Shown piece by piece: positions 11,843-61,468 of a stretch of 64,000 nucleotides of DNA (position 1 is its first letter; each line of letters opens with the position of its first letter). A program made the translations under genes and the position numbers. Under the pieces are notes generated by a model that saw only the letters and a list, made by a program, of their open reading frames with translations, had not been told where the DNA came from and did not search any database. Source of the stretch: Anastatus disparis. Lineage: Eukaryota > Arthropoda > Insecta > Hymenoptera > Eupelmidae. The stretch is taken from NCBI GenBank assembly GCA_017163975.1, contig JAFFSR010000344.1, positions 2,108,001-2,172,000 on the forward strand, read 5' to 3'.

Positions 11843-12232
11843 TTAAGAGGAGGTCACGTATCTCTGTCCTTTTCTAATAAAAAAATTGAGTTTTTTACAG
11901 AAACTAATAACTTGAGCAAAAAATGAAGAGAAAGCCGCATCTCGTATCAAAAAAAGCAATATTTTCTTTGATAAGAAAGAATTAATTTTATTGCTTCGTT
12001 TTCTAGAAAACCTTGAAAAACTTAAATCATAGAGGTTAGGGTGGACGATTTGGTTTTTCAAGGTTTTCTTGAGAATGAAGCAATAAAATTAATTTTTTTC
12101 TTATCAAAGAAAACATTGCTTTTTTCCATACAAGGTGCGGCTTTCTCTTCATTTTTTGCTAAAGTTATTAGTTTTTGTAAAAAAATCATTTCTTTGATTA
12201 GAAAAGGACAGAGATACACGACCCCCTCTTAA
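11843..12232. mobile_element. MITE with TTAA duplication, family GAGGAGGTC (copy 1)
   Basis: TTAA flanks a palindromic element (11847-12228) with ends GAGGAGGTCACGTATCTCTG and its complement GAGATACACGACCCCCTC. The halves share TCCTTTTCTAAT, AATAAC...GAAGAGAAAGCCGC and AACCTTGAAAAA. The two frames at 11843-12061 (minus) and 12041-12232 (plus) are mirror images generated by the palindrome, not genes. Two more copies occur, at 14586-14836 and 51405-52718. Confidence 0.85.
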
Positions 12233-15692: not shown

Positions 15693-15707
15693 TTCAAAAT
15701 ATACTGT

Positions 15708-17455: not shown

Positions 17456-18019
17456 CTATTTATACTCGCCGCTATGATTCTTAATACATTCAATAAGATG
17501 TTTATATATGCCTGACAAAGCCAATTTATCGGTTTTTAAATTAATCTTATTGTTAACATTATTAATAAATATCATTTCAGAAATTTTTCTCTTTTTATAA
17601 TTAGACTCTCTGTCTAGAATTTTAACATTTTCCCAATCAAAATCATGAGCCAATTCTGAAATATGTTGGGCAACTACAGTATTTTTATTTTTAAAATCCA
17701 TATGCTCTTTAAGACGAGTCTTAAGAGATCTTTTTGACTCACCCACATAACAAGCAGAACATGTTTTGCAATCAAATTTATAGACTATATCAGTAGTATC
17801 CTCTTTTTTCATTTTATCTTTACCCAACTTAATGATATTATTTAGTTTTTTGTTCAGAATTGGTCTAATACTAATGTTAAAGTTCTTTAGAGTCTTTTTA
17901 CATTGATTATATAAACGAGGAACAAACGAAATCGAAACAGAACATAACAAATTACTATTTTCACGTTGGTTTCTGTCAATAATAATATTATTGTTATTCA
18001 AAATATTATTTCTACGCAT
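17456..18019 (-). pseudogene. Penelope-like element: GIY-YIG endonuclease end
   Basis: A 187-codon frame contains IVYKFDCKTCSACYVGESKR, then LKTRLKEHM and VVAQHISELAHDFDW. The layout is Cys-rich linker, the YVG of the GIY-YIG core, R..EH and H..H. This is the usual C-terminal endonuclease of Penelope-like elements, which nicks target DNA for primed reverse transcription. It sits directly downstream (minus strand) of the RT fragment and is separated from it by frameshifts. The first GIY tyrosine is represented by VYKF. The domain looks fairly intact, but without a full RT the copy is dead. Confidence 0.88.
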
Positions 18020-18194
18020 ACGTTGATTAATACATTGGTCGACGAAATCAGATAGATAATTATTATGATACAGTAGATTCTTAATACAATTTAAGTTTTT
18101 TCCCTAAATGAAAAGTCAGTAAGATTGATCGCACGATCAACTAAATTATAAATGATATTACGTTTTAATTGTATCGTATGAAATGAATTAAAAT

Positions 18195-35555: not shown

Positions 35556-35757
35556 AGAAAGAATTACAATGTATTCAGTTTTTTTGAAAAGGGAATATAT
35601 TCTCCTGATTGTATAAAAGAGTATGCACTGTTGTTCTGTTCCACTATAGGATAGGTATGTGCTTTTTTTAGCTTTGGATATTATTATATTTGAAAAAAAG
35701 GAATTTACGAGGAATATGAAAAAAGCCAAGGTACTATACTCTAACGTTCAATATATG

Positions 35758-36607
35758 TAACGTTCCCTAATCTCATTAATTCCGAAGTTTAAATTACAAT
35801 TATTAAAACCCCTTTTATTCTATTTTTATGTATTTTACACGCGCCACAACGTGAACAAATTGTTGATAGCTAGCGCGCCATGCCTAGCTATTGCGAATTC
35901 TTTAACGTCCACGTTGTTAGTGTACTTCTTTTGGAGGTCAACCTGTAAAATGCATTCATGAAATAGAGTCGTTACAAGCTAGCGCGCCTTGCCTAGCTTA
36001 TGCGGACTCTTGTGTTGGTATCTTTGTTAGTTATTTTTTGTTACAAATCGTTTATAGCGGACGCGCCTTGCTTAGCTGTAGCGGACTTGTTATTTTATAA
36101 GGGGTTAGTAATTTTGGAATATTAGGTAAAGAGCCCGTTGTTGTTAAGAACCAGGTGTCTTAATATTTGGGGCTCAACAAAGGATTGATAGCAAAAGGAA
36201 TGTTAGCTTGGATGAACTCTTTATTCAGAAGGATGAATTTACAAACGTATTACAAAGCACGCTAACACGCGTATTCCATATGCCTTGCTATGAAATGCGA
36301 TGGCCAAGCGCCAGTTGTTGCTCCTAGCAAGGTATGATGCGTCTACTAAAGAGCTGATCCAAGAGTGACGAGAATCACAAGCTCCTCGCACTGCATGCAT
36401 CAACTTTCCCAGGTCTCTCTCCCACTCTTCTATATTAGTAGAAGAGAGGGAGAGCCGCCGTATACTTTCAGCGGTACTTACATATGCAAGTGCGTATACA
36501 TACATACACGCGCTTGCATGTTCAACCACTTTGGTCCTTATGGGTGTTTGCGCGCGCATCTTTCAGTATCGTACGGTTTCAGGGCCGTACATACTTGGGT
36601 GCTCACA
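35758..36607 (-). repeat. Left LTR (3' LTR of the minus-strand element), complete
   Basis: On the plus strand it runs TAACGTTCCCTAATCTC ... GGGTGCTCACA, so on the minus strand it begins TGTGAGCACCC. The purine tract GAGGGGCAA lies just outside at 36608-36620, as a polypurine tract should. The first ~724 bp match 42048-42776 closely; the last ~126 bp are missing from the other LTR. AGCTAGCGCGCC(T/A)TGCCTAGCT recurs as a short motif at 35870, 35978 and, diverged, 36060. Confidence 0.8.
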
Positions 36608-38413
36608 TTGCCCCTCAAAATTAAAATTGATTTTGAATTTTAATTACGTTAAATTTAAAGAAAAAATCTATTTTATTTTTCACTAACGCGACTTATAAAG
36701 ATGCGCGCACAAATACCAAAATACGCACTTAATACTATTCTGGTTGTGGTGTTGTGGTCTGCCCCCAAAATAAAATACGATTTTTTCAAAATGATACAAG
36801 CAAACTATATTCTTATTAATTTCATTTTTACATTTTAAAACGCAATAAATTATCAAATTGTCTTTTTTCTTTTTACTTTTTGTTGAACTTAGAAATGTTA
36901 TTTGTTTTATTTTGCTAAACTTTACCTAGCTTTTATTTTTTACTAGACTTTTACCTTTTGTTCTTCTTTCTCAAAATAAAAAAAATATTCTTTTGTTCTA
37001 TTGTTTTTATGCCACTAAAGATTTTTTGTTTTTTCTTTATTTTCATAAAAAAAATTGTTTTGTTTTAATTTTTATTGAGTTTTAAGTCTTATTTGATATT
37101 AATCATTATAACAAAATTTTCTTCTTTTTCCTTTTTTCCTTCTTCGCCTTTTATTTTGCCCCCCTTTGCAATTTTTAAATTTCTACAGGTTCCATTCTGT
37201 GTTGTAACCTCTACTCCGTCCCCAACCCTGAAAAGGTAGCAGAAAGTGCTCATATGCAAGGAAAAGGATAAGGGAAAAAGGTTTTTTTAAGCTAGACCCG
37301 TTCTTAGTGCAGACGTCATGCTACAACTAGTCCGGGGTCTCTTTGCTTGTATGTTTAGTTATTAGTAAGGGCCTCTTATAAGCCATAAAACTCCAAAGAC
37401 TCATAGTCTTATAAAGAGCATATTTTCCAATTTCGATTTACTAAAATTTAAAGTAATCATTAATTGCTAATACCACTAATACACAAATGAATTTCAAATA
37501 GGTAATAATTAGCTTGAATTTAAATAGTTTAATATACGTTCACTAAAAGACATACAAGTGAATGTATTCATTTAATGCAATTTTCACTGATCATAAAGTA
37601 AATTAATATTAAGCTTGAATTAAAACACTTTAATACATTCACAAAAAGAAATATAGTGAATGTAATATTTAATTAACTCTACCAAAATAAAACTTTGATT
37701 TTAATTAAAGTATTTATATCGTTATTACTGCTACCGGTACGGAGCTGGTGTCTATCCAGCTCCTCGCGGACCTACAGAATAATCGAAAATAATCAACACA
37801 AATACCAAGTATTAAATTTAAATTTGAACTTTATTTAGGGAGAGCTGGCCAAAGAGTGCCGTACAAAATTCATCACGACGACTAGATTGCTTTCGCTTGA
37901 GCCGCCGTCGCCGCTATCTTCCTCCTCTTAGTTTGATTTACATTGTGGGGGAATATCGCGCTAATTTTAGCTCGCGTTTTGCGTGAGTCCAGCGTTTCCA
38001 TATTATCTTTCGTACACGGAGCCTCTCCTCCTCGAATCCTGTGTACTGTCTAAAGAGGGGAGAGATTTTTATTACATATCTATCTTACAATACAGGTGCG
38101 CTTGCATGTGTGCTGGGAATACGTCATCTTTTAGGCGTTTATCAGCACACATAAAAGCGCGTACATATCTTATATTAATTTCTACCTTGCGCGTCGGTAT
38201 AACTTTTAATTGTTACATCGCGCCGACGCGCAAGATAGAAAGAGACACAATTATGATTTTATTCTCTTTACTTTTAACATGAGCATTGAAATTTGAGAGA
38301 GAATAATTTTCATTTTAAGTTTATTTTATTTTATTCTTATTTTCTTATTCTCTCTCAAATTATCAGCAGTTAGTAACTTATTATTCAATTTTTTCTTTCG
38401 TTAATACGTGAGG
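36608..38413. other. Internal non-coding part of the LTR element, with a possible second LTR-like segment
   Basis: 36650-37180 is T-rich. 37720-38290 is GC-richer, with AGCTGGTGTCTATCCAGCT (hairpin), CTTTATTT and CTTGCGCGTCGG...CCGACGCGCAAG (a 12-bp inverted repeat, 38189-38238). Next to it, AATTTGAGAGAGAATAA is inverted at 38349-38365. It looks like an inserted regulatory repeat or solo LTR, but I could not define its ends. Confidence 0.4.
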
Positions 38414-42778: not shown

Positions 42779-43919
42779 CAGCGTTGTTACAGAAAAAGTT
42801 TCGACACGGCACCCCCCACTTTTTTCCTTTAGCTATAGTAGAGTGCCAAAGCAATCTAGGGAGTTTTAGTAACTTTTATATTCTGCGCCTTCTGCTACAG
42901 TAGCCGAGTTTTATACGCTACATATGCTAATTTAGGTTGGGTGATATTTTTATTAAAATAAAAAAATCAGTATTTACTCAGAGTATTTATCTCTTTAGAA
43001 TAAACATTAATTAAAGAATATAGATGATACTAAATTTTAATTTAGTGAAATTGAAAATATTTATATTAAAACATGCGATGCCAATAGTGGTAGCGTCAGA
43101 GAGGGAAATTCAAAAATACCCAAAATCGGTCAAAAAAAAGTATTGAAAAAAATATTTTTTATGATTTGATAATTAATAATAGATTAAAAGAAAAAAAGTT
43201 ACTATAATAAAATTAATTATTGCACTTATTTATGATTTTATAAATAATTTGAAAATTGTGCATCGATATAGGATTTCTTTTGTATTTTACGTTATTTCAA
43301 TTGAAAAAACATAAAATACTAACGGATATCGTTATAAATCAATTATATTATAATTATAAAGTACAATAAACAAATAGATATTGTTTTAAATATGGAATTA
43401 GATAATTAAAACTGAAATAATGTTCTTTTATCGACCCTTACCACGAGCGAGACTCACCTTAAGCAAGAAATTTATGCGTAATACTCAAACAATAGACACA
43501 AAAGGTTGAATAAATCAATCGTAAATATTTAAAAGATTACATCCAGCTTTTTGATATCGATTAATTGTTGCATTATTCTATGTAATTTGCTTTTTCATGA
43601 AAATAAAAATTAAAATAATTTAACATAGCGCTTATTCAGTATTATAATTTATGCCATCATTACTGAAATTATTTTTAAAATTAAACATCAAATTAGTTAA
43701 GATTAATTATAAGTCATGCGAAAAATATCCATAATCTAAGGGAAATGAATATTTAATAGAACACGAATGATAATGATAAAAATATTATTCACTCCAGATG
43801 CTGAAAACACAAGAACTTTCAATTTTTTAATAAAAATGTATTAATAAAATTGAATTTCTTTGCTACCAAGCAAAATTATTTCTAATCAACATGGAAATAT
43901 GGTAAATACTGTAACGTGA
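42779..43919 (+). repeat. Left unique arm of the giant palindrome
   Basis: Uninterrupted arm, usable as the reference for the empty sites of both insertions in the right arm. It lacks a ~105-bp stretch present in the right arm at about 51117-51222. No frame of interest. Confidence 0.85.
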
Positions 43920-46900
43920 GATATTGTATTTACAAGATTTTTTTAGACAGTTGCGTGTTTTCATATTTTTCGAGTTCTATCTGACCGAATGAGGTTTTAT
44001 AGGGCTTATTTTTTAGCTTAAGACTAATATAATCAAATGGCAATAGTTAAGTTTACGAAAAATAGCCCAGCTTTAATTGCGATTCTGTAATGTTCAAAAT
44101 TCGTATGAAACGAAAATCAAGAGTCGGGTTCCCTTGAGATTTCTCATACTAAAATGTTAAATAATCACTGAAAAATGCCATAAATTTATAGTTTTTTACT
44201 TCAAAATAAAGCACGATTTTCGTCTTTCACGATATCAATTTTCTAACGTGAATTATTCTATTTACATGGTTTTTTTTAGACAGTTGCGTGTTTTCATATT
44301 TCTTAAGTTCTATCTAACCGAATGAGGTTTTATAGGGCTTATTCTTCGCTTAAGACTTATATAATCAAATCGCAATAGTTAAGTTTACGAAAAATTAGCC
44401 CATCTATAATTGCTATTCTGTAATGTTCAAAATTCATATGAAACGAAAATCAATAGTCGGTTTCCCTTGCGATTTCTCATACTAAAATGTTAAATAATCA
44501 CTGAAAAATGTCTTGAATTTATAGTTTTATACTATGGAATATAGCAGAATTTTCGATTTTTACGATATTTATCTTCTAACATGAAATATTCTATTTACAA
44601 GACTTTTGTTTTATAATTGCGTGTTTTCATATTTCTTGAGTTCTATCTAACCGAATGAGGTTTTATAGGGCTTATTTTTTAGCATAAGACTTATATAATC
44701 AAATCGCAATAGTTAAGATTACGAAAAATTTGCCCATCTATAATTGCAATTCTGTAATGTTCAAAATTCATATGAAACGAAAATCAATAGTCGGTTTCGC
44801 TTGCGATTTCTCATACTAAAATGTTGAATGATCACTGAAAAATGCCAAAAATTTATAGTTTTTCACTATAGAATAAAGCAGAATTTTTGATTTTTACGAT
44901 ATCAATTTTCTAACGTGAATTATTCTATTTACAAGGTTTCTTTCAGACAGTGGCGTGTTTTCATATTTCTCGAGTTCTATCTGACCGAGTGAGGTTTTAT
45001 AGGGCTTTTTTTTTAGCTTAAGACTAATATAATCAAATGGCAATAGTGAAGTTTACGAAAAATAGCCCAGCTTTAATTGCGATTCTGTAATGTTTAAAAT
45101 TCGTATGAAACGCGAAAATCAAGAGCCGGTGCCCATGAGATTTCTCATACTGAAACTTTGAATAATCACTGAAAAATGCCATAAATTTATAGTTTTTTAC
45201 TATAGAATATAGCAGAATTTTCGATTTTTACGATACGAATCTTCCAACCTGAAATATTCTATTTACAAGATTTTTTTATGACAGTTGCGTGTTTTTATAT
45301 TTCTTAAGTTCTATCTAATTGAATAAGGTTTTATAGGGCTTATTTTTTAGCTTAAGACTTATATAATCAAATCACAATAGTTAAGTTTACGAAAAATCAG
45401 CTCATCTATAATTGCGATTCTGTAATGTTCAAAATTCGTATGAAACCTAAATTAAGTGTCGGTTTTACTTGAGATTTCTTATACTAAAATGTTCGAAAAT
45501 CACTGAAAAATGCCATAAATTTATAGTTTTTTTACTATAGAATGAAGCAGAATTTTCGATTTTTACGATATTAATCTTTTAATCTGAAATATTCTATTTA
45601 CAAGACTTTTATTTTATAGTTGCGTGTTTTCATATTTCTCGAGTTCTATCTAACCGAATGAGGTTTTATAGGGCTTTTTTTTTAGCTTAAGACTTATAAA
45701 ATGAAATATTAACAGTGAGGATTACTGGAATTTAGCCCATCTACAATTGCGATTCTGTAATGTTCAAAATTCGTATGAAACCAATATCAAGAGTCGGTTT
45801 CCCTTGAGATTTCTTATACTAAAACGTTAAATGATCACTGAAAAATGCCAAAAATTTATAGTTCTTTACTATAGAATAAAGCAGAATTTTCGATTTTTAC
45901 GATATAAATCTTCTAACCTGAAATATTCTATTTACAAGGTTTCTTTTAGACAGTTACGTGTTTTCATATTTCTTAAGTTCTATCTAACCGAATGAGGTTT
46001 TATAGGGCTTATTCTTCGCTTAAGACTTATATAATCAAATCGCAATAGTTAAGTTTACGAAAAATTAGCCCATCTATAATTGCTATTCTGTAATGTTCAA
46101 AATTCATATGAAACGAAAATCAATAGTCGGTTTCCCTTGCGATTTCTCATACTAAAATGTTAAATAATTACTAAGAAATGCCTCAAATTTATAGTTTTAT
46201 ACTACGGAAAATAGCAGAATTTTCAATTTTTTCTATATTAATCTTCTAACATGAAATATTCTATTTACGAGACTTTTGTTTTATAATTGCGTGTTTCCAT
46301 ATTTTCGAGTTCTATCTAATCGAATGAGGTTTTATAGGGTTTATTTTTGAGCTTAAGACTTATGAAATAAAATATCAACAGTTAGGTTTACTAGAAATTA
46401 GCCCATCTATAATTGCGATTCTGTAATGTTCAAAATTCGTATGAAACCAATATCAAGAGTCGGTTTCCCTTGAGATTTCTCATACTAAAATGTTAAATGA
46501 TCACTGAAAAATGCCAAAAATTTATAGTTTTTCACTATAGAATAAAGCAGAATTTTTGATTTTTACGATATCAATTTTCTAACGTGAATTATTCTATTTA
46601 CAAAGTTTTTTTTAGACAGTTGCGTGTTTTTATATTTCTCGAGTTCTATCTGACCGAATGAGGTTTTATAGGGCTTATTTTTTAGCTTAAGACTAATATA
46701 ATCAAATGGCAATAGTTAAGTTTACGAAAAATAGCCCAGCTTTAATTGCGATTCCGTAATGTTTTTAATTCGTATGAAACGAAAATCAAGAGCCGGTGCC
46801 CATGAGATTTCTCATACTGAAACTTTGAATAATCACTGAAAAATGCCATAAATTTATAGTTTTTTACTATAGAATATAGCAGAATTTTCGATTTTTACGA

Positions 46901-48475
46901 TACGAATCTTCCAACCTGAAATATTCTATTTACAAGTTTTTTTTTATGACAGTTGCGTGTTTTTATATTTCTTAAGTTTTATCTAACCGAATGAGGTTTT
47001 ATAGGGCTTATTTTTTGGCTTAAGACTTATATAATCAAATCACAATAGTTAAGTTTACGAAAAATCAGCTCATCTATAATTGCGATTCTGTAATGTTCAA
47101 AATTCGTATAAAACCAAAATTAAGTGTCGGTTTCACTTGAGATTTCTTATACTAAAATGTTAGAAAATCACTGCAAAATGCAATAAATATATAGTTTTTT
47201 ACTATAGAATAAAGCAGAATTTTCGATTTTTACGATATTAATCTTTTAACCTGAAATACTCTATTTACAAAACTTTTATTTTATAGTTGGGTGTTTTCAC
47301 ATTTCTCGAGTTCTATCTAACCGAGTGAGGTTTTATAGGGCTTTTTTTTGAGCCTAAGACTTATGAAATGAAATATCAACAGTGAGGTTTACTAGAAATT
47401 AGCACATCTATAATTGCGATTCTGTAATGTTCAAAATTCGTATGAAACCAATATCAAGAGTCGGTTTCCCTTGAGATTTCTCATACTAAAATGTTAAATG
47501 ATCACTGAAAAATGCCAAAAGTTTATAGTTCTTGACTATAGAATAAAGCAGAATTTTCGATTTTTACGATATTAATCTTCTAACCTGAAATATTTATTTA
47601 CAAGATTTTTTTCAGGCAGTTGCGTGTTTTCATATTTCTTAAGTTCTATCTAACCGAATGAGGTTTTATAGGGCTCATTTTTTAGCTTAAGACTTATATG
47701 ATCAAATCGCAATAGTTAAGTTTACGAAAAATTAGCCTATCTATAATTGCTATTTTGTAATGTTCAAAATTCATATGAAACGCAAATCAATAGTCGGTTT
47801 CCCTTGCGATTTCTCATACCTAAATGTTAAATAATCACTAAAAAATGCCTTAAATTTATAGTTTTATACTATGGAATATAGCAGAATTTTCAATTTTTAC
47901 GATATTAATCTTCTAACACGAAATATTCTATTTACGAGACTTTTGTTTTATAATTGCGTGTTTCCATATTTCTCGAGTTCTATCTAACCGAATGAGGTTT
48001 TATAGAGCTTATTTTTGAGCTTAAGACTTATGAAATAAAAAATCAACAGTTAGGTTTACTAGAAATCAGCCCATCTATAATTGCGATTCTGTAATGTTCA
48101 AAATTCGTATGAAACCAATATCAAGAGTCGGTTTCCCTTGAGATTTTACGTACTTAAACGTTAAATAATCACTAGAAACTACTATAAATTTATCCCTTTT
48201 TACTTTAAAATAAAGAACGAATATCGATTCATACGATCTCAATTTTATAACGTCAGATATTGTATTTACAAGATTTTCTTTGGACGGAGGCATGTTTTTA
48301 CATTTCTCGAGTTATATCTGACCAAATGAGGTTTTATAGGACTTGTTATTTTGCCTAATATTTATATTATTTAATCGCAATAGTCCACGTAAAATTAACC
48401 AATCCCTGATTGCGATAGTATAATATTCAAAATTCTTATAGAACCAAGATAAATAGTCGCTTTTCCATAAGATTG
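43920..48475 (+). repeat. Satellite array, 14 monomers of ~334 bp, direct orientation
   Basis: The marker GAGGTTTTATAGGGCT recurs at about 43990, 44326, 44658, 44990, 45325, 45659, 45993, 46326, 46660, 46993, 47327, 47660, 47994 and 48328 (slightly changed in the last). Each monomer contains ATTCTATTTACAAG, GTTGCGTGTTTTCATATTTC, GCTTAAGACTTATATAATCA, GATTCTGTAATGTTCAAAAT and CACTGAAAAATGCC. Monomer types repeat every fifth copy: numbers 2, 7 and 12 share ATTGCTATT and CATATGAAACG; 3, 8 and 13 share GACTTTTGTTTTATAATTGC; 4 and 9 share AGCCGGTGCCCATGAG; 5 and 10 share TATGACAGTTGCGTGTTTT. The higher-order period is ~1.67 kb. The last monomer, at the centre of symmetry, is the most diverged. Confidence 0.92.
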
Positions 48476-51080
48476 CTATAAATTTATGGTATTATTCAGT
48501 GATAATTCAACGTTTGAGTATGAACAATCCTATGGAAAACCGAGTTTCAATTATGGTCCAATAAGAAATTTAAAAATAACAAAATCGCAACTATAGATAG
48601 GCTAAATTTTCGTGAATTAAAGAATAGCGATTTGATTGAGTCTTAAGCTATAAAATAAGCCCTATAAAATCTCATTCGGTTAGATAGAACTCGAGAAATA
48701 TGAAAACACGCAACTATAAAATAAAAGTATTGTAAATAGAATATTTCAGGTTAGAAGATTGATATCGTAAAAATCGAAAATTCTGCCATATTCTATAGTA
48801 AAAAACTATAAATTTATGGCATTTTTCAGTGATTATTTAAAATTTTAGTATGAGAAATCTTAAGGTAAACCGAATCTTCATTTTGGTTCCATACGAATCT
48901 TGAACATTACAGAATCGCAATTAGAGATTGGCTAATTTTTCGAAACTACTGCAATTTGATTATATAAGTCTTAAGCTAAAAAATAAGCCCTATAAAACCT
49001 CATTCGGTTAGATATAACTCGAGAAATATGAAAACACGCCACATTAAAAAAAGGCTTGTAAATAGAATATTTCAGGTTAGAAGATTCATATCGTAAGAAT
49101 CGAAAATTCTGCTATATTCTATAGTAAAAAACTATAAATTTATGGTATTTTTCAGTGATTATTTATCATTTTAGTATGAGGAATCTCAAGGAAAACCGAC
49201 TATTGATTTTGGTTTCATACGAATTTTGAACATTACAGAATCGCAATTATAGATGGGCTAATTTTTCGTAAACTTAACTATTGTGATTTGATTATATAAG
49301 TCTTAAGCTAAAAAATAAGCCCTATAAAACCTTATTCGGTTAGATAGAACTTAAGAAATATGAAAACACGCAACTGTGAAAAAAAAATCTTGTAAGTAGA
49401 ATATTTTAGGTTATAAGATTCATATCGTAACAATCGAAAATTCTGCTATATTCTATAGTAAAAAACTAATAATTTATGGCATTTTTCAGTGATTATTTAA
49501 CATTTTAGTATGAGAAATCTCCAGGGAAATCGACTCTTCCTTTTGGTTTCATACGAATTTTGAAAATTACAGAATCGCAATTATAGATGAGCTAATTTTT
49601 CGTAGACTTAACTATAGCCATTTGATTATATTAGTCTTAAGCTAAAAAATAAGCCCTATAAAACCTTATTCAGCTTGATAGAACTTAAGAAATATGAAAA
49701 CACGCAACTGTCTAAAAAAAACTTTGTAAATAGAATAATTCACGTTAGAAAATTGATATCGTAAAAATCAAAAATTCTGCTTTATTCTATAGTGAAAAAC
49801 TATAAATTTTTGGCATTTTTCAGTGATCATTTAACATTTTAGTATGAGAAATCTCAAGGGAAACCGACTCTTGATATTGGTTTCATACGAATTTTGAACA
49901 TTACAGAATCGCAATTATAGATGGGCTAATTTCTAGTAAACCTAACTGTTGATATTTTATTTCATAAGTCTTAAGCTCAAAAATAAACCCTATAAAACCT
50001 CATTCGATTAGATAGAACTCGAAAATATGGAAACACGCAATTATAAAACAAAAGTCTCGTAAATAGAATATTTCATGTTAGAAGATTAATATCGAAAAAA
50101 TTGAAAATTCTGCTATATTCCGTAGTATAAAACTATAAATTTAAGGCATTTCTTAATAATTATTTAACATTTTAGTATGAGAAATCGCAAGGGAAACCGA
50201 CTATTGATTTTCGTTTCATATGAATTTTGAACATTACAGAATAGCAATTATAGATGGGCTAATTTTTCGTAAACTTAACTATTGCGATTTGATTATATAA
50301 GTCTTAAGCGAAGAATAAGCCCTATAAAACCTCATTCGGTTAGATAGAACTTAAGAAATATGAAAACACGTAACTGTCTAAAAGAAACCTTGTAAATAGA
50401 ATATTTCAGGTTAGAAGATTTATATCGTAAAAATCGAAAATTCTGCTTTATTCTATAGTAAAGAACTATAAATTTTTGGCATTTTTCAGTGATCATTTAA
50501 CGTTTTAGTATAAGAAATCTCAAGGGAAACCGACTCTTGATATTGGTTTCATACGAATTTTGAACATTACAGAATCGCAATTGTAGATGGGCTAATTTCT
50601 AGTAAACCTCACTGTTGATATTTCATTTTATAAGTCTTAAGCTAAAAAAAAAGCCCTATAAAACCTCATTCGGTTAGATAGAACTCGAGAAATATGAAAA
50701 CACGCAACTATAAAATAAAAGTCTTGTAAATAGAATATTTCAGATTAAAAGATTAATATCGTAAAAATCGAAAATTCTGCTTAATTTTATAGTAAAAAAA
50801 CTATAAATTTATGGCATTTTTCAGTGATTTTCGAACATTTTAGTATAAGAAATCTCAAGTAAAACCGACACTTAATTTAGGTTTCATACGAATTTTGAAC
50901 ATTACAGAATCGCAATTATAGATGGGCAAATTTTTCGTAATCTTAACTATTGCGATTTGATTATATAAGTCTTAAGCTAAAAAATAAGCCCTATAAAACC
51001 TCATTCGGTTAGATAAAACTTAAGAAATATAAAAACACGCAACTGTCATAAAAAAAAACTTGTAAATACAATATCTCACG
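48476..51080 (-). repeat. Satellite array, 8 monomers, inverted orientation
   Basis: The marker in complement, AGCCCTATAAAA, occurs at about 48658, 48990, 49320, 49652, 49985, 50318, 50652 and 50986. Read on the minus strand from the right, the monomer types follow the same five-step order as the left array. Orientation flips near 48475, so the two arrays could fold on each other over ~2.6 kb. Confidence 0.9.
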
Positions 51081-53494
51081 TTACAGTATTTACCATATTT
51101 CCATGTTGATTAGAAATCATTTTATTTTTTAAATCATCCTTAGTTTCTTGATTTATTATTTCCAACCGGGTTATAAATAATTAAATTTATTATAACAAAA
51201 AATTGGTCACTGTTTGAGCTTGGTAGCAAAGAAATTCAATTTTATTAATACATTTTTATTAAAAAATTGAAAGTTCTTGTGCTATCAGCGTCTGGAGTGA
51301 ATAATATTTTTATCATTAACATTCGTGTTCTATTAAATATTTATTTCCCTCAAATTATGGATATTTTTCGCATGACTTATAATTAATCTTAACTAATTTG
51401 ATGTTTAAGAGCAGGTCGTATATCTCTGTCCTTTTCCAATCAAAGAATTTATTTTTTTGCAAAAACTCATAATTGTAGGAAAAAATAAGGAGTTAGCCCC
51501 ATTTCGTATAATAGAAAGCAAGATTGTCTTTGATGAGGAAAATAGTATATTATGCGTCAAGGCCGCAAAACGTATCATTCTTGGCGAGTGCATGCTGAGG
51601 GGCCGAGCGAAAGCGAGGCCGCTCCAGCTGCAAGAGCAAGAATGATATGTTTGTGGCCGTGACTGCATATACTTTTTTTTGTCCAAAGGCCGCTAAGCGG
51701 AAGCTGGGGCGGAGCCCCCCGCCTATAAAAAAAATAATTCATAATTCTTAAAATATAAAAGAATTTTATATGTATAATATGAATTTTTTTTATTATATAT
51801 TTAATAAAAAATTCAATTATAAATAATAAATAACTAATAATTCTCAAAACACAATAAAAAAATATAATAAAAAAAATTCGATTATAAAAACCACTAATAA
51901 TTGTTAAAATATTAAATTAAAATTAAACAAAAATACAATAAAATATAAAATAAAGCTAAACTATAAATATTATAACTAAAAAATATTTAAGAAAAGAAAG
52001 AAAAAGTTTTAAAAAAATAGAATAAAAAAAAATCGATTATAAAAACAACTAACAATTTTTAAAATATAATATTAAAATTAAACAAAAATAAAACAAAGCT
52101 AAACTATAAAAATTATAATTCAAAATTATTTAAAAAAGAAAAAAATTTTAACACGCGAAACTGGTAACTATGTCTTTCCCTCGCTCTTTCCTTTTCTTTC
52201 ATAATACACATATATTGAGTCTAAGTTATTCGTTAACGAATACCCAGTATAGTATATGTGAGAAAAGGATAACGATATTAAGGAAAGCGAGCAGTTCATT
52301 AAGTTCAATTCCAAGAATCGCGACGTCGAGAACATTTTTCTGCGAACTTTTATTAAAATAAGACATTGGATATACACATCTTTCTTTTGCGACCTAGGAC
52401 AAGAATAAACTATTTTGTGCTCCGTACACAGGACACAAAAATTCATTTTGTGGCCTAAGGACAAAAAATTATTTTTATCGATTCGTTTTGAAGAAAACCT
52501 TGAAAAACTTAAAAAATAGAGGTTCGGATAGACAATTCAGTTTTTCAAGGTTTTCTTAAAAACGAAGCGATAAAAATAATTTTTCCTCATAAAAGAAAAT
52601 CTTGCTTTTTATTACACGAGATGGGGCTTTCTTCTTATTTTTTGCTACAATTATTAATTTTTGTGAAAAAATCAATTTTTTGATTAGAAAAGGACAGATA
52701 TACTCGACCTCCTCTTAATTTTAAAAATAATTTCGGTAATGATGGCATTAATTATAATGCTGAATAAGCGCTATGTTAAATTATTTTAATTTTTATTTTC
52801 ATGAAAAAGCAAATTACGTAGAATAATGCAGCAATTAATCGATATAAAAAAGCTGGATGTAATCTTTTAAATATTTACGATTGATTTATTCAACCTTTTG
52901 TGTCTATTGTTTGAGTATTACGCATAAATTTCTTGCTTAAGGTGAGTCTCGCTCGTGGTAAGGGTCGATAAAAGAACATTATTTCAGTTTTAATTATCTA
53001 ATTCCATATTTAAAACAATATCTATTTGTTTATTGTACTTTATAATTATAATATAATTGATTTATAACGATATCCGTTAGTATTTTATGTTTTTTCAATT
53101 GAAATAACGTAAAATACAAAAGAAATCCTATATCGATGCACAATTTTCAAATTATTTATAAAATCATAAATAAGTGCAATAATTAATTTTATTATAGTAA
53201 CTTTTTTTCTTTTAATTTATTATTAATTATCAAATCATAAAAAATATTTTTTTTAATACTTTTTTTTGACCGATTTTGGGTATTTTTGAATTTCCCTCTC
53301 TGACGCTACCACTATTGGCATCGCATGTTTTAATATAAATATTTTCAATTTCACTAAATTAAAATTTAGTATCATCTATATTCTTTAATTAATGTTTATT
53401 CTAAAGAGATAAATACTCTGAGTAAATACTGATTTTTTTATTTTAATAAAAATATCACCTAACCTAAATTAGCATATGTAGCGTATAAAACTCG
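51081..53494 (-). repeat. Right unique arm of the giant palindrome (inner part, interrupted)
   Basis: It pairs with 43919-42908, except for a ~105-bp segment absent from the left arm (about 51117-51222) and the TTAA MITE at 51405-52718. It ends at CTCG, where the Gypsy element begins. The outermost 130 bp of the arm continue at 61339-61468. Confidence 0.88.
51405..52718. mobile_element. TTAA-flanked MITE (family GAGGAGGTC, copy 3) carrying an internal insertion
   Basis: TTAA at 51405-51408 and 52715-52718 flank ends GAGCAGGTCGTATATCTCTG and its complement. The left arm of the giant palindrome has a single TTAA at the matching place, proving insertion. About 0.9 kb of foreign sequence (roughly 51545-52460) sits between the MITE halves. 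It starts with a GC-rich, hairpin-prone block (51555-51725: CCGC-TAA-GCGG and GGGGC-GGA-GCCCC), reminiscent of Helitron ends, followed by A-rich DNA. At 52220-52250 lies TATTCGTTAACGAATA, a perfect 16-bp palindrome. Frames inside (51405-51847 and 52168-52464) are not recognised. Confidence 0.8.
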
Positions 53495-53789
53495 TGTGGG
53501 CACACAAACATAGAGTATGTATGTATGAATGAGATATACATGTAAGCGTCACGCGCAACCTGTGGTGCGCAAGTAAGCGACTAGAAACGTAACCTATGTG
53601 TTACACGAGAGATCCGAAGTGAGTCAGAGCGTTCTCAACTCCGGAATAGATAAGTATTCTCTCTTCGCTTCGCAGGTGATTTTGTAACGACGACTTGGTA
53701 CAATAAAGACTTTGTAATTCTACTTTCAGTCTTACATATTATTTCATCTCCTCATCCAACCAAGCTTCTCCGTAGTTCAGGGAACTACA
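53495..53789 (+). repeat. 5' LTR of the Gypsy element (295 bp)
   Basis: TGTGGGCACAC ... GGGAACTACA. By eye five substitutions separate it from the 3' LTR. AATAAAGACTTTG at about 53713 is a likely poly-A signal. No strong TATA box. The target duplication CTCG precedes it (53491-53494). Confidence 0.95.
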
Positions 53790-54284
53790 GTGGTCACCCC
53801 GACAGCCGTTCGGGAAGAAGAGGACAGTGCAGCGCAGCTAGCAGCGAAGGTCCGGTGCAGGAAGCCAAGGAAGGCCAGCACGGCGTCGCGAGCAAAGGCG
53901 GCCATTTTGCGAACGCGAGGATTTCATCATAAAGGTTAGACTTATGATTTCTCGCGTCGCGCTGAGTAGAGTACTTGATATTTAAAGAAAAATTTTTGTT
54001 ACAAAGAAATTGTTAATCAATATAAGTAATTAATTTCCTTTTCTTCTTTCTAGTGATATACTCTGTGCGGGAGAGTAGTTACTAACATTATATATATTAA
54101 GTAAATTCGCCGGAAATAGCGTATATATACATATTTAATACTAACAAACATTATAAATAATATCTAAGACGCACAGTTAGTGAGAAGCTGGCTTCTTCCA
54201 GCTACACGTGCGAATAAAATATTTTTGTTGTTGCTTTGTAATAGGGCAATTATGGGTTTGGCGAGGTTTAGAAATGTGTAACCA
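53790..54284 (+). other. 5' untranslated leader of the Gypsy element with PBS
   Basis: TGGTCACCCCGACAGCCG begins at 53791. The priming tRNA is not assigned. The leader is GC-rich to 53930, then AT-rich. Confidence 0.7.
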
Positions 54285-55110
54285 ACTCATTGAATTTGTT
54301 CATCTACTTGGGCACAAATCGAGGCCTTGCCAATTACCTATGGTTGTATTTTGGATAGAGACATAAGTCGCGAAACATCAAGTTTAATAAAAAGATTGAA
54401 ACCGGGTAACAGATATAACGGCTTAAGAAAATATCTTATAGATACGTACGGTCAGTCTCAGGAGGAGAGATTTAATAAGTTATTCAGGAAATGCCGGGCG
54501 CAGGAAGAAAAACCGTCCGATTTTTTAAGAGAAATGATTGACGTGGCCGGTGAAAATATAAAAAGAGAAACTATTTTAAAAGCATGGAAATATTACCTAC
54601 CGCCAAGTATTAAATCGCATGTTATGGGAGAAATAAATTTATCGAACGAAGAAACCGTGGTAAAGAATGCGGACGAATTATATAAAAACAAGTGCGAAGA
54701 AGAGGTCGATAAGACAGTGAGCATTAACGCGGTAAACCAGGATACGGTAAATAAAAATGAATGCAATGAACCACGCGTAGGTAACGTAGAGATCGACGCA
54801 TATATCGAGGCTATTATCAAGAAGACGCTCGGTAAAGTAGGAAACGGATCTAGAAACGATAGAAGATCGTGATATAGCAATTATCAGAATAATAGAACGA
54901 AACGCTACTGTAGATATCACGCTCAGTATGGAATAAAAGCATAGTGTGAACAACCATGCGATTGGACTGACTTTGATAGAAGGCATGAGTCTGTTCCGCC
55001 TAAGCATAGATCGAAATCGCCTGCTCGAGGGATAGAAAGGAGAAATAGCGTTAGAAATGATAAACGACAGACGTCTAACGGTAGAAACCTTAGTAAAGAA
55101 AAAACGCATT
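54285..55110 (+). pseudogene. Gypsy Gag with nucleocapsid knuckle, damaged
   Basis: WAQIEALPITYGCILDRDIS starts the recognisable part; the join of WAQIEA to ITYGC suggests a deletion in the N-terminal capsid region. The 181-codon frame 54327-54872 continues with YLIDTYGQSQEERFNKLFRK, EKPSDFLREMIDVAG and WKYYLPPSIKSHV, the capsid pattern of Gypsy Gags. After a stop at 54872 comes CRYHAQYGIKA, a stop, and CEQPCDW: a Cx2H..C..C knuckle of the CsRn1/Kabuki-like type, followed by a basic Arg/Ser region. Two in-frame stops inactivate it. Minus-strand frames here are shadows. Confidence 0.85.
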
Positions 55111-55149
55111 TAAACTCCCAATCCGGCGGGTAGAGGGGGCAACCTCGTC

Positions 55150-55520
55150 GGACACAGAGAGCATACGCCTCCACGTTATTGACAAAGCAGCGGAAGAAGC
55201 ATTTTTAGTGGATACGGGTGCGGAAGTATCATTAGTTCCGAAAAGAAAAAATAGTAAAAAAAAGCAACGCATGTAAAATTATACGCAGCAAACAATACAC
55301 AAATAGATACGTACGGAATAGTTTACAGGGAATTAGACTTCGGGTTTAAGAACAAGATTAAATGGACATTCATCGTTGCAGATGTACCATATGCGATTTT
55401 AGGCGGCGACGTCATCAAGCACTATCATTTGCTTCCAGATCTAAACCGACGGAAGCTGGTAGATGCAGAGACTGGTGAGTCGGTCGCAGGCACCACTAAG
55501 AAAGTAGCATACGTTCAGAT
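55150..55520 (+). pseudogene. Gypsy aspartic protease
   Basis: FLVDTGAEVSLVPKRK at about 55200-55250 is the active-site DTGA, and FIVADVPYAILGGDVIKHYH at about 55370-55430 is the ILG.D flap-end motif. One frameshift separates them near 55265. The second half shares the frame that continues into the RT (55429-55815). The enzyme would cut the Gag-Pol polyprotein; as it stands it is not translatable as one piece. Confidence 0.88.
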
Positions 55521-56271
55521 GTTAATTGACCCGGAGAATAGATACGCCGATGTAATAAAAAAATTCCCATCCGTCATAGGGCTTGAAAAGCATAAAACAA
55601 AAAGAAATATAGATGTGTATCACCATTTTAAAACAATAGGACCACCAGTCGCACAGAAACCACGGCGTCTGGCGCCTGATAGGCTACAAGCAGCCAAAAG
55701 GGAGTTTGAGAGATGGTGTAAGGAAGACGTTTGCCAACCTTCGAAAAGCCCTTGGGCTACACCTACACGGAGAGAAAAATCATGTTATTTTCTTATGATA
55801 AATTTAACACGTTAAAATTAAATGATTCTTCATGTAAGATTCTCATGAAATCAACTTAATTTAACCAGAATAGATCCTAACTGAAAACGCTATAGGCGCC
55901 ATGATATTATCCTTTGGACAGCAACTATAATTACTAAGAGCGCCAAGTGAATATAACCAGTTAGTCGATCCTGTGATATTCACTTACCGCTCACGGGATT
56001 TTCACGTGGCACTCAATTAAATTCAATGGTGGCGTGACCAACCGAGTAGCGCGTGCTTTGCAGGTAGTGGGGAGAGAGAGAGTAACCAAAATACAATCTT
56101 ATTATGATGGTAAAACAGCAATATATATATTTTTAAAAAATTAATAAATATTAAATTATCAATATTACCTTTGAAACTATTAGGAATAAATTTTAAACTC
56201 AAAATTTAATTATTTTAAACAACTGGAGGACAGATAAGCATGTATCATTTCGCACCAAACATATCTCAAAG

Positions 56272-56343
56272 CAGGTTTAGCCTAGTGCGTAACGTTCGTG
56301 CTTTTCTTTTTGGGTGCGCGAGTTCAACTCTCGGTCAAGACCA
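56272..56343 (+). other. tRNA-like module, left arm
   Basis: TAGCCTAGTGCGTAACG resembles an A box, and GCGAGTTCAACTCTCGGT carries a T-arm-like stem CGAG/CTCG with the seven-base loop TTCAACT (B box). Ends GGTTT and AAGACC could pair as an acceptor stem. The anticodon arm is not convincing, so this is tRNA-derived rather than a working tRNA. Confidence 0.5.
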
Positions 56344-56836
56344 CTTTTTCATTATTTTAATATTTTTATTAATTATTTTATTTATATTTTCTTTTTCTAA
56401 TATTAAAATCTAATTAAATATGCTCATTTTTTTAATTAAAATTTTTTTAAAATAAATTATTTCTTATACGTAATAATTAAAAATATTAATAAATGAATAA
56501 CAATTATATTTATAATACTTCAGTTAAATTTTGTCTTCTTAAATATATATGTGTGTGTATTAATGTATAATATAAACTATAACATAAATGAATTAATACT
56601 ATAGACTAATTTATTTATTATGTCAATTTTATAAATTACATTATGAATAAATTAAATTATAGTATTATAAATCACTATTATTTATTTATTAACTATTTGA
56701 ATTATTACGTATAAGAAATAATTTATTTTAAAAAAATATTAATTAAAAAAATGAGCATACTTAATTTGATTTTAATATTAGAAAAAAGAAAATATAAATT
56801 AAATAATTAATAAAAAATATTAAAATAATAAAAAAA

Positions 56837-56910
56837 GTGGTCTTGACCGAGAGTTGAACTCGCACGCCCAAAAAGAAAAGCACGAACGTTACGCACTAGG
56901 CTAAACCTGC
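56837..56910 (-). other. tRNA-like module, right arm
   Basis: Near-identical inverted copy of 56272-56343 (one or two changes, for example GCACGCCC against GCGCACCC). Confidence 0.5.
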
Positions 56911-57976
56911 TTTCAGATATGTTTGGTGCGAAATGATACATGCTTCTATGCCCCCCCAGTTGTTTAAAATAATTAAATTTTGAGTTTAAAATTTATTCCT
57001 AATAGTTTCAAAGGTAATATTGATAATTTAATATTTATTAATTTTTTAAAAATATATATATTGCTGTTTTACCATCATAATAAGATTGTATTTTGGTTAC
57101 TCTCTCTCTCTCTCCCCACTACCTGCAAAGCACGCGCTACTCGGTTGGTCACGCCACCATTGAATTCACTTGAGTGCCACGTGAAAATCCCGTGAGCCGC
57201 AAGTAATTTTAACATGATGCATTGCTACGTTCATTCTCCTGGCAGCCCACGTAATTTTAAGTTGACCATCAAGAAAAAATAACATCTTTTGTATCTGATT
57301 TTAAAATGGATACCAATCATCTATTAAAAACATGAGTATCATAAAAAAATCACTTGTTTTTTCGATAATATTCGGTGAAGAAATATCATGTAATAATCAC
57401 TTGAAATTTCATGGAATAATAACATGATTTTTCTCTCCGTGTATCCGTATGGTTCCCAAAAAGAATGGTGAGTGGAGGATATGTGGTGATTATAGGAGGT
57501 TGAATACGGTCACAGTACCGGATAAATACCCAATCCCTATCCAGCGATACATAAACCAGGCCGTGGATGATCTGGACTTTGTGTTCGCATTCGTAGATGA
57601 TATCTTGGTTGCATCTTCATCAGACGAGGAGCATCAAGAACATCTTAAGATCGTCCTAGAGAGGTTAGAGAAGTTCCACCTCAAATTGAACATCGAAAAG
57701 TGTCAGTTTGGAGTTAATGAACTCATCTTCTTAGGCCACTTGATCGACAGAAATGGATTCAAACCAGATCCGTCTGAGGTCGAAGCTATAAGAGCCTTCA
57801 AGAAGCCCAAGACTAAAGACGAGACGCGTCGATTCTTGGGAATGGTAAACTTTTACAGGAAAAGCTTGCCAAAAGCCGCTGAAGTGCAGAGACATCTAGT
57901 TGCTATGATTAAGGATATAAAGAAGAAAGATAAACGTCCTGTGGAATGGACCGCAGATCTGCCGTACAAAGTATAA

Positions 57977-58648
57977 AAGTGGTTAACTACATTGGAATCC
58001 CATTGGAGTTAAGGTTTTCTTACTTTGGACGGCAGAGATGCAGAACGAGCTTTCAAGACTATTAAAAAAGAATTAGCGAATATAGCATACCTCGAGTTTC
58101 CGTCTAAAAATGCAGAAGTTAGGTTAGTTACAGACGCGTCAAATTTCGCGATGGGCGCAACGTTAGAGCAGAAAGTAGATAACTCGTGGAAACCACTAGC
58201 ATTTTTTTCAAAAAAATTCACGCCCGCACAATCGAGATACTCTACGTACGATCGCGAATTAATGATCATTTATGAAGCCATCAGATATTTTAACTACTAC
58301 TTGGAGGGTAGAACATTCAAAGTATATACTGACCATGAACCGTTGACTCATGCGTTGAATAAAGGTTTAGATAGCTGCACCGCGTTACAAGCAAGAAAAT
58401 TAGCATACATCGCGGAATTTAATGTAAAAATCTGTTACTTACCAGGCGAAAATAACGTAGTAGCAGACGCGCTATCAAGAGTCGACGATTTCAGGTTTCC
58501 GACAATATTCTCATTAGATGAGATAGCAAAAAAACAGGTGAAAGATCAACAGCTGCAGGAGATCATAAATAACCCGCAGCATCAATTAAAACTGGTTAAG
58601 TTGCAATATGGTGTAGAGAATACGCCATTTTATTGCGAAATCGCGTAA
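57977..58648 (+). pseudogene. Gypsy RNase H domain
   Basis: Frame 58025-58648: VRLVTDASNFAMGATLEQ (first Asp), STYDRELMIIYEAIRYFNYY (Glu), FKVYTDHEPLTHALNK (second Asp) and VVADALSRV (last Asp) are the four catalytic positions of RNase H, all present. The link to the RT (57977-58024) contains two stops. The frame ends in TAA at 58646-58648, and the integrase frame continues in phase directly afterwards, so a single nonsense change splits the polyprotein. Confidence 0.93.
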
Positions 58649-58651
58649 GAT

Positions 58652-60262
58652 GTGCTTAGGCCGTATGTGCCAGAAACACTGAGAGCAGTCATCTTTGAAC
58701 TCTTTCACAATAAAGCACATCCATCTGCTCGATCAACGAGTAAGATGATTAGAAAGCAATATGTGTGGCCGAACATGAACAGGCAAATAACATCTTGGTG
58801 CAGAGCATGCATGGAATGCCAAAGATCCAAGGTTACTAGGGAAAACAAGTTTTTATTTATGAAGTTTAACGAGCCTGGTGCGAGGTTTGCTCGCGTTCAT
58901 GTTGACTTGATAGGTACGTTGCCACTTAGCGATGGTTACAAATATCTTGTGACCATGATAGATAGGTATACTAGGTGGCCGGAGGCGGTGCCCGTTTACG
59001 ACGCATCGGCTCCGACTGTCGCACGCGCTTTTTATGATACGTGGGTGTCACGCTTCGGTGCACCTGTCATCATAACAGCGGATCAAGGCAGGCAGTTTGA
59101 GTCCAGCATGTTCTTAGAATTGCTGCATCTTATAGGTTGTAAAAGGGTGCGCACAACAGCGTATCATCCTGCTGCAAACGGTATAGTGGAGCGATGGCAC
59201 CGTGACCTTAAGGCGGCACTTATGTGTCATATGGAAGGATGCGAATGGACTAGAGTCCTTTCCACAGTTTTATTAGGATTGAGAACGCGCCTAAGGGAAG
59301 ACACGGAGGCCAGTCCAGCTGAGTTCTTATACAGAACGACATTGGCCATACCGGGAGATATGTGTGAGTTCAGAGACACAGATGTGCGAGATCATGCGAT
59401 GTTCCTATCGGAATTTAAGGAATATATGAGAGAGGTTAGGCCGGTGCCGGTAAGGCATAATCGTGCACTGAAAGCATTCGTCTATAAAGACTTACAGAAC
59501 TGCACTCATGTGTTAGAGAGAATAAAGGCAGTGAAACCACCTCTCGTTCAACCGTACACAGGGCCATTTAAGGTAATATCGAGATACGAGAATGGTCGAA
59601 ATTATGTGATAAGAAAGGGAGATAAAGATGTTACGGTGAACGTCGAAAGGCTTAAACCAGCATACCTTTTAGCAAGCGAGATAGAAGATAGTGCAACAGA
59701 GGAGAATCAAACCCAAAATGTCAGTATGGAACCAAGTAGTAGTGGTAATAATGGAGCAAATAATGAAAGCAACGATCAACAGACTGACGATACTTACACA
59801 GTAAGCGAAAAAAATACAGTAGTAGTTGAAGCACAGATCCATGAGGAGGCTTCACCCGCAACAGCAGAAAATTATGATGCACTAGAGGAAGAAAATCATG
59901 CACAAGAGATAGTTAATGAGGAGGTGCATACGAACGACGAGTTAGATAATAACAAGTATGACGTGCCTAACGAAAGGTATTATGACAACACGGGTAGCGT
60001 TAGCAATCCGTGCAACATGACGAATAGTAGGGAAACGGTGTTAAAAAACAATAAATTAAGTTCAAACGTAGTACAAAATGATGATGATATAGAAAAAAAT
60101 AGAAAGAGAGAGAAATTCGTTCCAAATATTTTAAGGCGAAGAAATATAAATAGTATTTTAATACGAGAAAATGTAAGTAGGAGTAATAAAAAGCGTAACG
60201 TAGACGTAAAAAAAGTTAGATTTTGTACACCAGTTTCTCACTATAAAATAAAATGTAATTAG
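58652..60262 (+). CDS. Gypsy integrase with GPY/F module and long acidic tail
   Basis: An open frame of 536 codons, the longest in the window. Residues ~15-60 form the HHCC zinc domain (HNKAHPS.., CRACMEC). The catalytic triad is in FARVHVDLIGTLP (Asp), IITADQGRQFES (Asp) and AANGIVERWHRDLK (Glu). VQPYTGPFKVISRYENGRNY is the GPY/F module. About 190 residues follow that are Asn/Glu/Ser-rich and end basic (RKREKFVPN.., KKVRFCTP). Integrase joins the cDNA to host DNA. In the live element it would be part of Gag-Pol, so the ATG at 58652 is only the first Met after a nonsense codon. Intact as a domain, orphaned in context. Confidence 0.93.
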   Translation: MLRPYVPETLRAVIFELFHNKAHPSARSTSKMIRKQYVWPNMNRQITSWCRACMECQRSKVTRENKFLFMKFNEPGARFARVHVDLIGTLPLSDGYKYLVTMIDRYTRWPEAVPVYDASAPTVARAFYDTWVSRFGAPVIITADQGRQFESSMFLELLHLIGCKRVRTTAYHPAANGIVERWHRDLKAALMCHMEGCEWTRVLSTVLLGLRTRLREDTEASPAEFLYRTTLAIPGDMCEFRDTDVRDHAMFLSEFKEYMREVRPVPVRHNRALKAFVYKDLQNCTHVLERIKAVKPPLVQPYTGPFKVISRYENGRNYVIRKGDKDVTVNVERLKPAYLLASEIEDSATEENQTQNVSMEPSSSGNNGANNESNDQQTDDTYTVSEKNTVVVEAQIHEEASPATAENYDALEEENHAQEIVNEEVHTNDELDNNKYDVPNERYYDNTGSVSNPCNMTNSRETVLKNNKLSSNVVQNDDDIEKNRKREKFVPNILRRRNINSILIRENVSRSNKKRNVDVKKVRFCTPVSHYKIKCN

Positions 60263-61043
60263 TTGTAAGTTTTTGTAGCGAAATTGTATTAATAATGTAT
60301 TTCTTTTGTTATATATAGGTGAAGCTGATTGGGCTCTCCTCTGATATTTGTATCGCTAAAGAGTTCCGTCAACCTAATCAAGATGTTTTTCCTAGAAGAA
60401 TTGGCCAGAGGCTCATTGTATAAGATTTTTTTTTTATTGTTGTAACTGACGTTTGTGTAATATGGTACACATGAATTGTTAAATGTTAAATTTGATTCAC
60501 GAAACTATTATTTATAAAATATAAAAATTGTTATTTAGTATATATTATTAAGGAAAATAAAAATGCAATATGTCAAATAAGCATGGATTCAACGAGATGA
60601 TTACAAGTGAATGTATGCCAGGGTGTAAAAGTACCGGAAAGCGAGTAAAAAAAAAAAAAAAGAAGTTGCTTACATACATAATAATGTAATATAAAACTCA
60701 AGAAAATATGTAATAAAAGTGTAAAAATGTAAATAATTTAGATTCTATGTGCAAAAATGTAAATAATTTAGGTTATATGTGTATTGAGTATAAGCATGTG
60801 TGAGAGTAAATGCATAAGTGCATACAAATGTAAAATCGTATGAGCGAGAGTAATCGCATAAGAATAAATGCATGTAAAGAGTAATTGCTTGAGTAATTAT
60901 GTAACATGTAACACTATTAAAATATCAAAAGTCGCAATTATGTAAAAAGAAATTATATGTAAATAAGTACCCACTGATTATGTAAAAATATGCATATATT
61001 TTTTACGGTAAATAACCATAGGTGATTATTTAGAAGGGAGTAC
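60263..61043 (+). other. 3' untranslated region of the Gypsy element
   Basis: AT-rich, with repeated TGTAAATAATTTAGRTT and GTGTAAAAATG words at 60715-60780, and no envelope-like frame. The purine tract AGAAGGGAG (61032-61040) abuts the 3' LTR. Confidence 0.75.
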
Positions 61044-61338
61044 TGTGGGCACACAGACATAGAGTATGTATGTATGAATGAGATATACATGTAAGCGTCA
61101 CGCGCAACCTGCGGTGCGCAAATAAGTGACTAGAAACGTAACCTATGTGTTACACGAGAGATACGAAGTGAGTCAGAGCGTTCTCAACTCCGGAATAGAT
61201 AAGTATTCTCTCTTCGCTTCGCAGGTGATTTTGTAACGACGACTTGGTACAATAAAGACTTTGTAATTCTACTTTCAGTCTTACATATTATTTCATCTCC
61301 TCATCCAACCAAGCTTCTCCGTAGTTCAGGGAACTACA
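61044..61338 (+). repeat. 3' LTR of the Gypsy element (295 bp)
   Basis: TGTGGGCACAC ... GGGAACTACA, followed by the target duplication CTCG (61339-61342) and then the outer 126 bp of the palindrome arm. Confidence 0.95.
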
Positions 61339-61468
61339 CTCGGCTACTGTAGCAGAAGGCGCAGAATATAAAAGTTACTAAAACTCCCTAGATTGCTTTG
61401 GCACTCTACTATAGCTAAAGGAAAAAAGTGGGAGGTGCCGTGTTGAAACTTTTTCTGTTACAACGCTG

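Follow-up and report, generated by a model that had tools for sequence, protein, structure and literature searches.

Architecture of the palindromic element

The window analysed here, a 64,000-nucleotide stretch of an Anastatus disparis contig (JAFFSR010000344.1), contains at positions 42779-61468 a palindromic element of about 9.5 kb net of later insertions. It starts at 42779 with CAGCGTTGTTACAG and ends at 61468 with the same motif reverse-complemented (one mismatch in 14). Two 1.1-kb arms enclose two arrays of a monomer with a period of 334 bp, 13.4 copies in one orientation and 7.8 in the opposite, around a 91-bp centre. The arms match each other over 780 bp at 98.8%, 191 bp at 96.3% and 131 bp at 97.7%. 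A previous sequence-only reading of this DNA had described a palindromic element of about 9.5 kb with inverted ends and arms, in which monomer orientation flips near 48475; re-measuring gave the same net length, and both the opposed arrays and a centre at 48385-48475 were found. Its monomer length of about 334 bp also stands, and its count of 22 is revised to 21.2 copies, on opposite strands. The features are as follows.

37791..38382, + strand: sequence paralogous to the target site of copy C296 in its uninterrupted form, 82% over the junction
42779..43913, + strand: left arm (terminal inverted repeat), non-coding, beginning with CAGCGTTGTTACAG; matches elsewhere in the genome both to the arm and to the arm probe
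43912..48384, + strand: left satellite array, 13.4 monomers of 334 bp
48385..48475, no strand: palindrome centre, 91 bp, kept in 12 of 12 aligned copies
48476..51083, - strand: right satellite array, 7.8 monomers, reversed relative to the left array
51084..51408, - strand: right arm, inner part
51409..52714, no strand: TTAA-flanked nested insert with inverted ends of its own
52715..53494, - strand: right arm, middle part, 98.8% identical to the left arm
53495..61338, + strand: nested Gypsy-type LTR retrotransposon, from a by-eye reading of its frames; foreign to the palindromic element
61339..61468, - strand: right arm, outer end, closing with the terminal inverted motif (one mismatch in 14)

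The right arm is thus broken by two later insertions. The LTR element is flanked by a 4-bp duplication (CTCG) and its LTRs are 98.3% identical (286 bp compared), while the TTAA-flanked insert measures 1,306 bp and has related pieces at window positions 11847-12228. The left end of the element adjoins an LTR-like repeat that recurs at 35755-36461. The window copy has no 8-bp target duplication, which this repeat may have removed. Elsewhere in the window, two frames have, by eye, the look of a PIF1-type helicase (14919-15707) and a GIY-YIG endonuclease (17456-18103).

A dispersed family with a single centre

The 939-Mb genome was searched with patterns allowing up to three mismatches, and reversed patterns served as controls. 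The 30-bp end gave 92 matches (46 per strand), the arm 65, the centre 22 and the monomer 783. None of the four reversed patterns gave a match, so the structure in the window exceeds chance, and other copies with the same ends, for which the sequence-only reading had proposed a search, are present genome-wide. At least 28 further arms have at least 1,019 matched bases each at 93-97% identity (40 of 1003 candidates scored). Opposed arrays occur at no fewer than 21 loci including the window; in 20 of the 23 other loci fetched, monomers of both orientations lie between arms. Monomers of C295 and C105 are in a single orientation in the part fetched, and C300 has none. The 14 other two-ended copies measure 5.4 to 18.4 kb with nested inserts counted in, and the palindromes of the family 5-16 kb. 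In C222, the palindrome is locally rearranged: a second copy of its left flank, with 748 bp of left arm, lies 2.7 kb upstream and adjoins inverted monomers.

All 12 copies compared could be aligned at the centre over about 210 bp, and each of the 22 genome matches to the centre lies at a locus with a family end. On this basis, the copies are best read as descendants of one founding palindrome. Arm divergence averages 2.27% within a copy (14 copies) versus 3.7-3.8% between copies. The arm tree is mixed: the two arms of the same copy are sisters in C353, the window, C280, C390 and C275, whereas the trio C294b, C225 and C371 retains two separate arm types.

Evidence for mobility

Perfect 8-bp target duplications, another feature that the sequence-only reading had singled out for checking, flank 12 of the 15 two-ended copies; besides the window, where there is none, the duplication is absent or imperfect in C242 and C246a. 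Uninterrupted paralogous sites spanning the junction were inspected for four copies (C296, C371, C222 and C294b), and six of 13 joined-flank queries returned some alignment across the junction. At the C222 site, the alignment is poor at the duplication itself. Copies C294b and C225, 8.3 kb each and located at different sites, are 99.81% identical over 8,312 aligned columns and have different target duplications (ATGGTGGC and ATGACACT, respectively). Such near-identical copies with different duplications and sites make it likely that a transposon carries complete satellite arrays as its cargo. The proposal of a mobile carrier that seeds inverted satellite arrays is supported by copies with the same ends, by target duplications, by variable monomer numbers, by paralogous empty sites and by this near-identical pair.

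The alternative hypothesis, a local palindromic duplication of a satellite edge that spread via segmental duplication and without transposition, had been linked in the sequence-only reading to two expectations, namely that no other copy with these ends exists and that the monomer forms long arrays elsewhere without the arms. The first does not hold. On the second, 18 of the best-listed 100 of 783 monomer matches have no detected end or arm within 40 kb. These monomers are in line with a local origin, as is the local duplication at C222, which takes in its flank. However, the flanks differ among copies, homology ends at the termini, where 8-bp duplications lie in 12 of 15 copies, and uninterrupted paralogous sites exist. 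Given the other copies, the target duplications and the empty paralogous sites, we reject a merely local palindrome and regard its spread by segmental duplication as highly improbable.

Array length and probable exchange between palindrome halves

Monomer numbers vary among copies, as the sequence-only reading had expected of an element; examples are 12+6, 19+6 and 31 on one side. C294b and C225 have 12+6 monomers by BLAST and 12+5 full-length monomers by profile; C371, their near-identical sister, has 19+6. The extra monomers of C371 are repeats of monomers 4-7 at 0-1% divergence, and the outer three and the innermost match one to one. Taken together, the 12+6 pair at 99.81% identity and the 19+6 sister make it likely that arrays move whole and lengthen by block duplication. 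C294a, with 31 monomers on one side and 38 same-side pairs at 1% or less, is largely homogenised. Array length could possibly change at transposition instead of in place. In C390, a 2.57-kb piggyBac insert is present twice (99.8%) in one array, apparently doubled along with neighbouring monomers, which points to duplication in place.

The halves of the palindrome probably exchange sequence at times. In the window copy, monomers recur with a periodicity of five (L02-L05 with L07-L10 at 3.3-7.9%), and a block of three monomers is common to both halves (R02-R04 versus L06-L08, 0-1.2%). Left-right monomer pairs at 2% or less occur in three of 23 copies (window, C227 and C275), and the arms within a copy diverge by 0.27% in C275 and 0.33% in C280.

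Classification and comparison with known systems

The element is of the foldback type with tandem repeats in its arms, and Tetris is structurally the closest known system. Tandem repeats lie within its long inverted terminal repeats, which a short middle separates; target-site duplications occur at dispersed sites (perfect in 12 of 15 two-ended copies, none at the window), and no transposase of its own is visible. Ends of hAT transposons start with CAGNG, and their target duplication consensus is nTnnnnAn. The ends here begin with CAGNG, and target duplications are 8 bp in the carriers as well as in their relatives described below (C135 and the ~31-kb giants). The consensus itself is a weak fit, with T at position 2 in 11 of 16 duplications and A at position 7 in 10 of 16, and only the ends and the duplication length agree with hAT membership. 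Helentrons are a different transposon class, and Galileo duplications are 7 bp long.

The comparison with Tetris, a foldback element of Drosophila virilis, is one of structure by description, not of sequence. The long inverted ends of Tetris include an outer flanking domain, its internal tandem repeats of about 220 bp vary in number, and its target duplications measure 8-10 bp (PMC4079207). It has no coding capacity, has ends in common with the relative DAIBAM, and shows repeat units duplicated between near-identical copies. Tetris had three structurally complete copies, each arm with a few repeats, and its authors propose that transposition is disrupted when arrays are larger. The present family, in contrast, includes a near-identical pair with 12+6 monomers located at different sites, has as many as 31 monomers on one side, and keeps a single founding centre in 22 copies. 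In Xstir, a Xenopus MITE with riding tandem repeats (Hikosaka and Kawahara, as cited in the review PMC12628747), repeats likewise lie in a non-autonomous inverted-repeat element, whereas the arrays of the wasp are opposed and lie inside one palindrome of 5-16 kb. Helentron arrays of Crassostrea gigas are also dispersed, satellite-like and carried by non-autonomous elements (PMC7492417), but the element described here has inverted ends and 8-bp duplications. Galileo, of the P superfamily, shares foldback-like long inverted ends and internal tandem repeats (PMC4168063 and PMC4079207); it differs from the present family, which has 8-bp duplications and no P-type transposase inside two-ended relatives. 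Among open-licence papers, we did not find an element like this one.

Searches for a transposase

The carriers have no visible transposase of their own. Stop-to-stop frames of at least 130 aa lie in nested inserts or flanks, and a few cross an end slightly. The insert in C390 was identified by Pfam match as a piggyBac, whose nearest named proteins are from ants and parasitoid wasps; five frames of the C296 inserts had no Pfam match. A transposase inside the carriers was therefore rejected for these two copies, which the scans covered.

The 13 two-ended intervals of the related end type contained neither a hAT domain (PF05699; 150 of 751 candidates scored) nor a P-type domain (PF21787; 139 of 139 candidates scored). 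A P-type helper was rejected on the latter result. Zisupton elements of the KDZ/Zisupton group have 8-bp duplications (PMC12730594). The KDZ domain PF18758 yielded no candidate here, and control genomes likewise gave none.

Relatives with similar ends

Nearly the same 30-bp end, mostly with one mismatch, bounds other elements too. A relative on C135 measures 3.6 kb; it is a palindrome whose arms are 1.75 kb long, has a perfect 8-bp duplication (ATTCTGAT) and no monomer, and matches the family over about 290 bp of outer arm at 87%. Three giants of 30.9-31.2 kb (C225:9005191-9036430, C237:2600267-2631130 and C328:4745671-4776892) all have perfect 8-bp duplications (ATTGGGAT, AGGGCGAG and GTCGTGGC, in this order). 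They have in common a stretch 1,508-1,509 bp from one end that is about 100% identical over the 2 kb compared. Pieces of this 2-kb stretch jointly match the RFWD3 WD40 family (4.7e-18, over the cut-off, with stops as X), and it also holds a glutamine-rich frame. In the C225 giant, a mid-element sample contains a frame for an Ulp1-type peptidase (3.5e-5, over the cut-off). One interior sample of a ~31-kb element looks non-coding, and protein searches with pieces of a ~31-kb element returned no homologue.

The ~31-kb elements may represent an undescribed lineage of giant transposons. That they are candidate helper elements for the carriers is a guess, made from the approximately 3.4 kb of giant interior that was read. 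It is intriguing to propose, though we would sooner doubt than accept it, that a new and recently active giant lineage with 8-bp duplications, an Ulp1-type protease and captured RFWD3-like sequence powers palindromic parasites, which package opposed arrays, move them intact and regenerate them by exchange between the two halves. If true, the giants and their palindromic parasites would together constitute a satellite-dispersal machine.

A probable carrier of ready-made satellite arrays

We consider it very probable that the family is a multi-copy palindromic element with opposed 334-bp arrays as cargo, presumably a non-autonomous cut-and-paste transposon. Briefly, a transposase acting in trans would recognise the CAGCGTTGTTACAG ends, cut out the whole palindrome and join it into a target with an 8-bp stagger. 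All copies would descend from one founding palindrome, and array length would later change via unequal exchange or slippage of monomer blocks. By pairing as a hairpin or between sisters, one half might at times overwrite the other. The transposase is predicted to come from the ~31-kb elements with similar ends, unless these are fellow passengers.

The family bears on the question of how satellite DNA comes to lie at many sites in the form of ready-made arrays. As the copies described here are near-identical yet differ in place and monomer number, one route becomes testable, in which the array travels first and its length changes later. Hairpin or double-stranded RNA is a further predicted product of long opposed arrays.

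Origin of the satellite

The 24 loci read contain 280 of the 783 genome matches to the 37-bp monomer probe. Places are known for the best-listed 100 matches, 82 of which lie no more than 40 kb from a family end or arm. The 18 listed matches without one are distributed over C218 (seven), C16 (four) and C179 (two), with single matches on C38, C143, C226, C229 and C390. These end-less loci may be decayed elements, escaped arrays or older satellite; decayed or unrecognised elements are conceivable because an arm lies 1 kb from the matches on C72 and at C222:1133915. Monomer matches away from ends and arms allow either that the array was captured from an existing satellite or that copies were shed.

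Free satellite arrays could have existed first and been captured once by a palindromic transposon that now disperses them. The end- and arm-free monomers on C218 and C16 are consistent with such a capture, as is the C135 relative with its similar outer arms and no monomer. Against it, 82 of the 100 listed matches lie near an end or arm, and the end-less loci may represent elements that have decayed or escaped recognition; we place capture somewhat below an even chance. The reverse order, in which the satellite was born inside the element or its giant relative and then escaped, follows the precedent proposed for Tetris (PMC4079207) and comes close to an even chance. In its favour, the monomer is matched perfectly on C46 at a point some 7.4 kb inward of a family end (C46:556902-564310), beside sequence resembling the ~31-kb elements. 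However, the two samples read from the C225 giant (2 kb and 1 kb), a small part of that element, contained no notable monomer or arm match.

An 8-mer, TTCTGTAA, is common to the monomer and the ends. The idea of the monomer as a repeat of binding sites gained no support and was set aside, since the stretch with TTCTGTAA ranks 49th of 320 windows for conservation. The monomer matches on C218 and C16 with no family end or arm detected nearby lie at C218:21086775-21113892 and C16:597534-609041.
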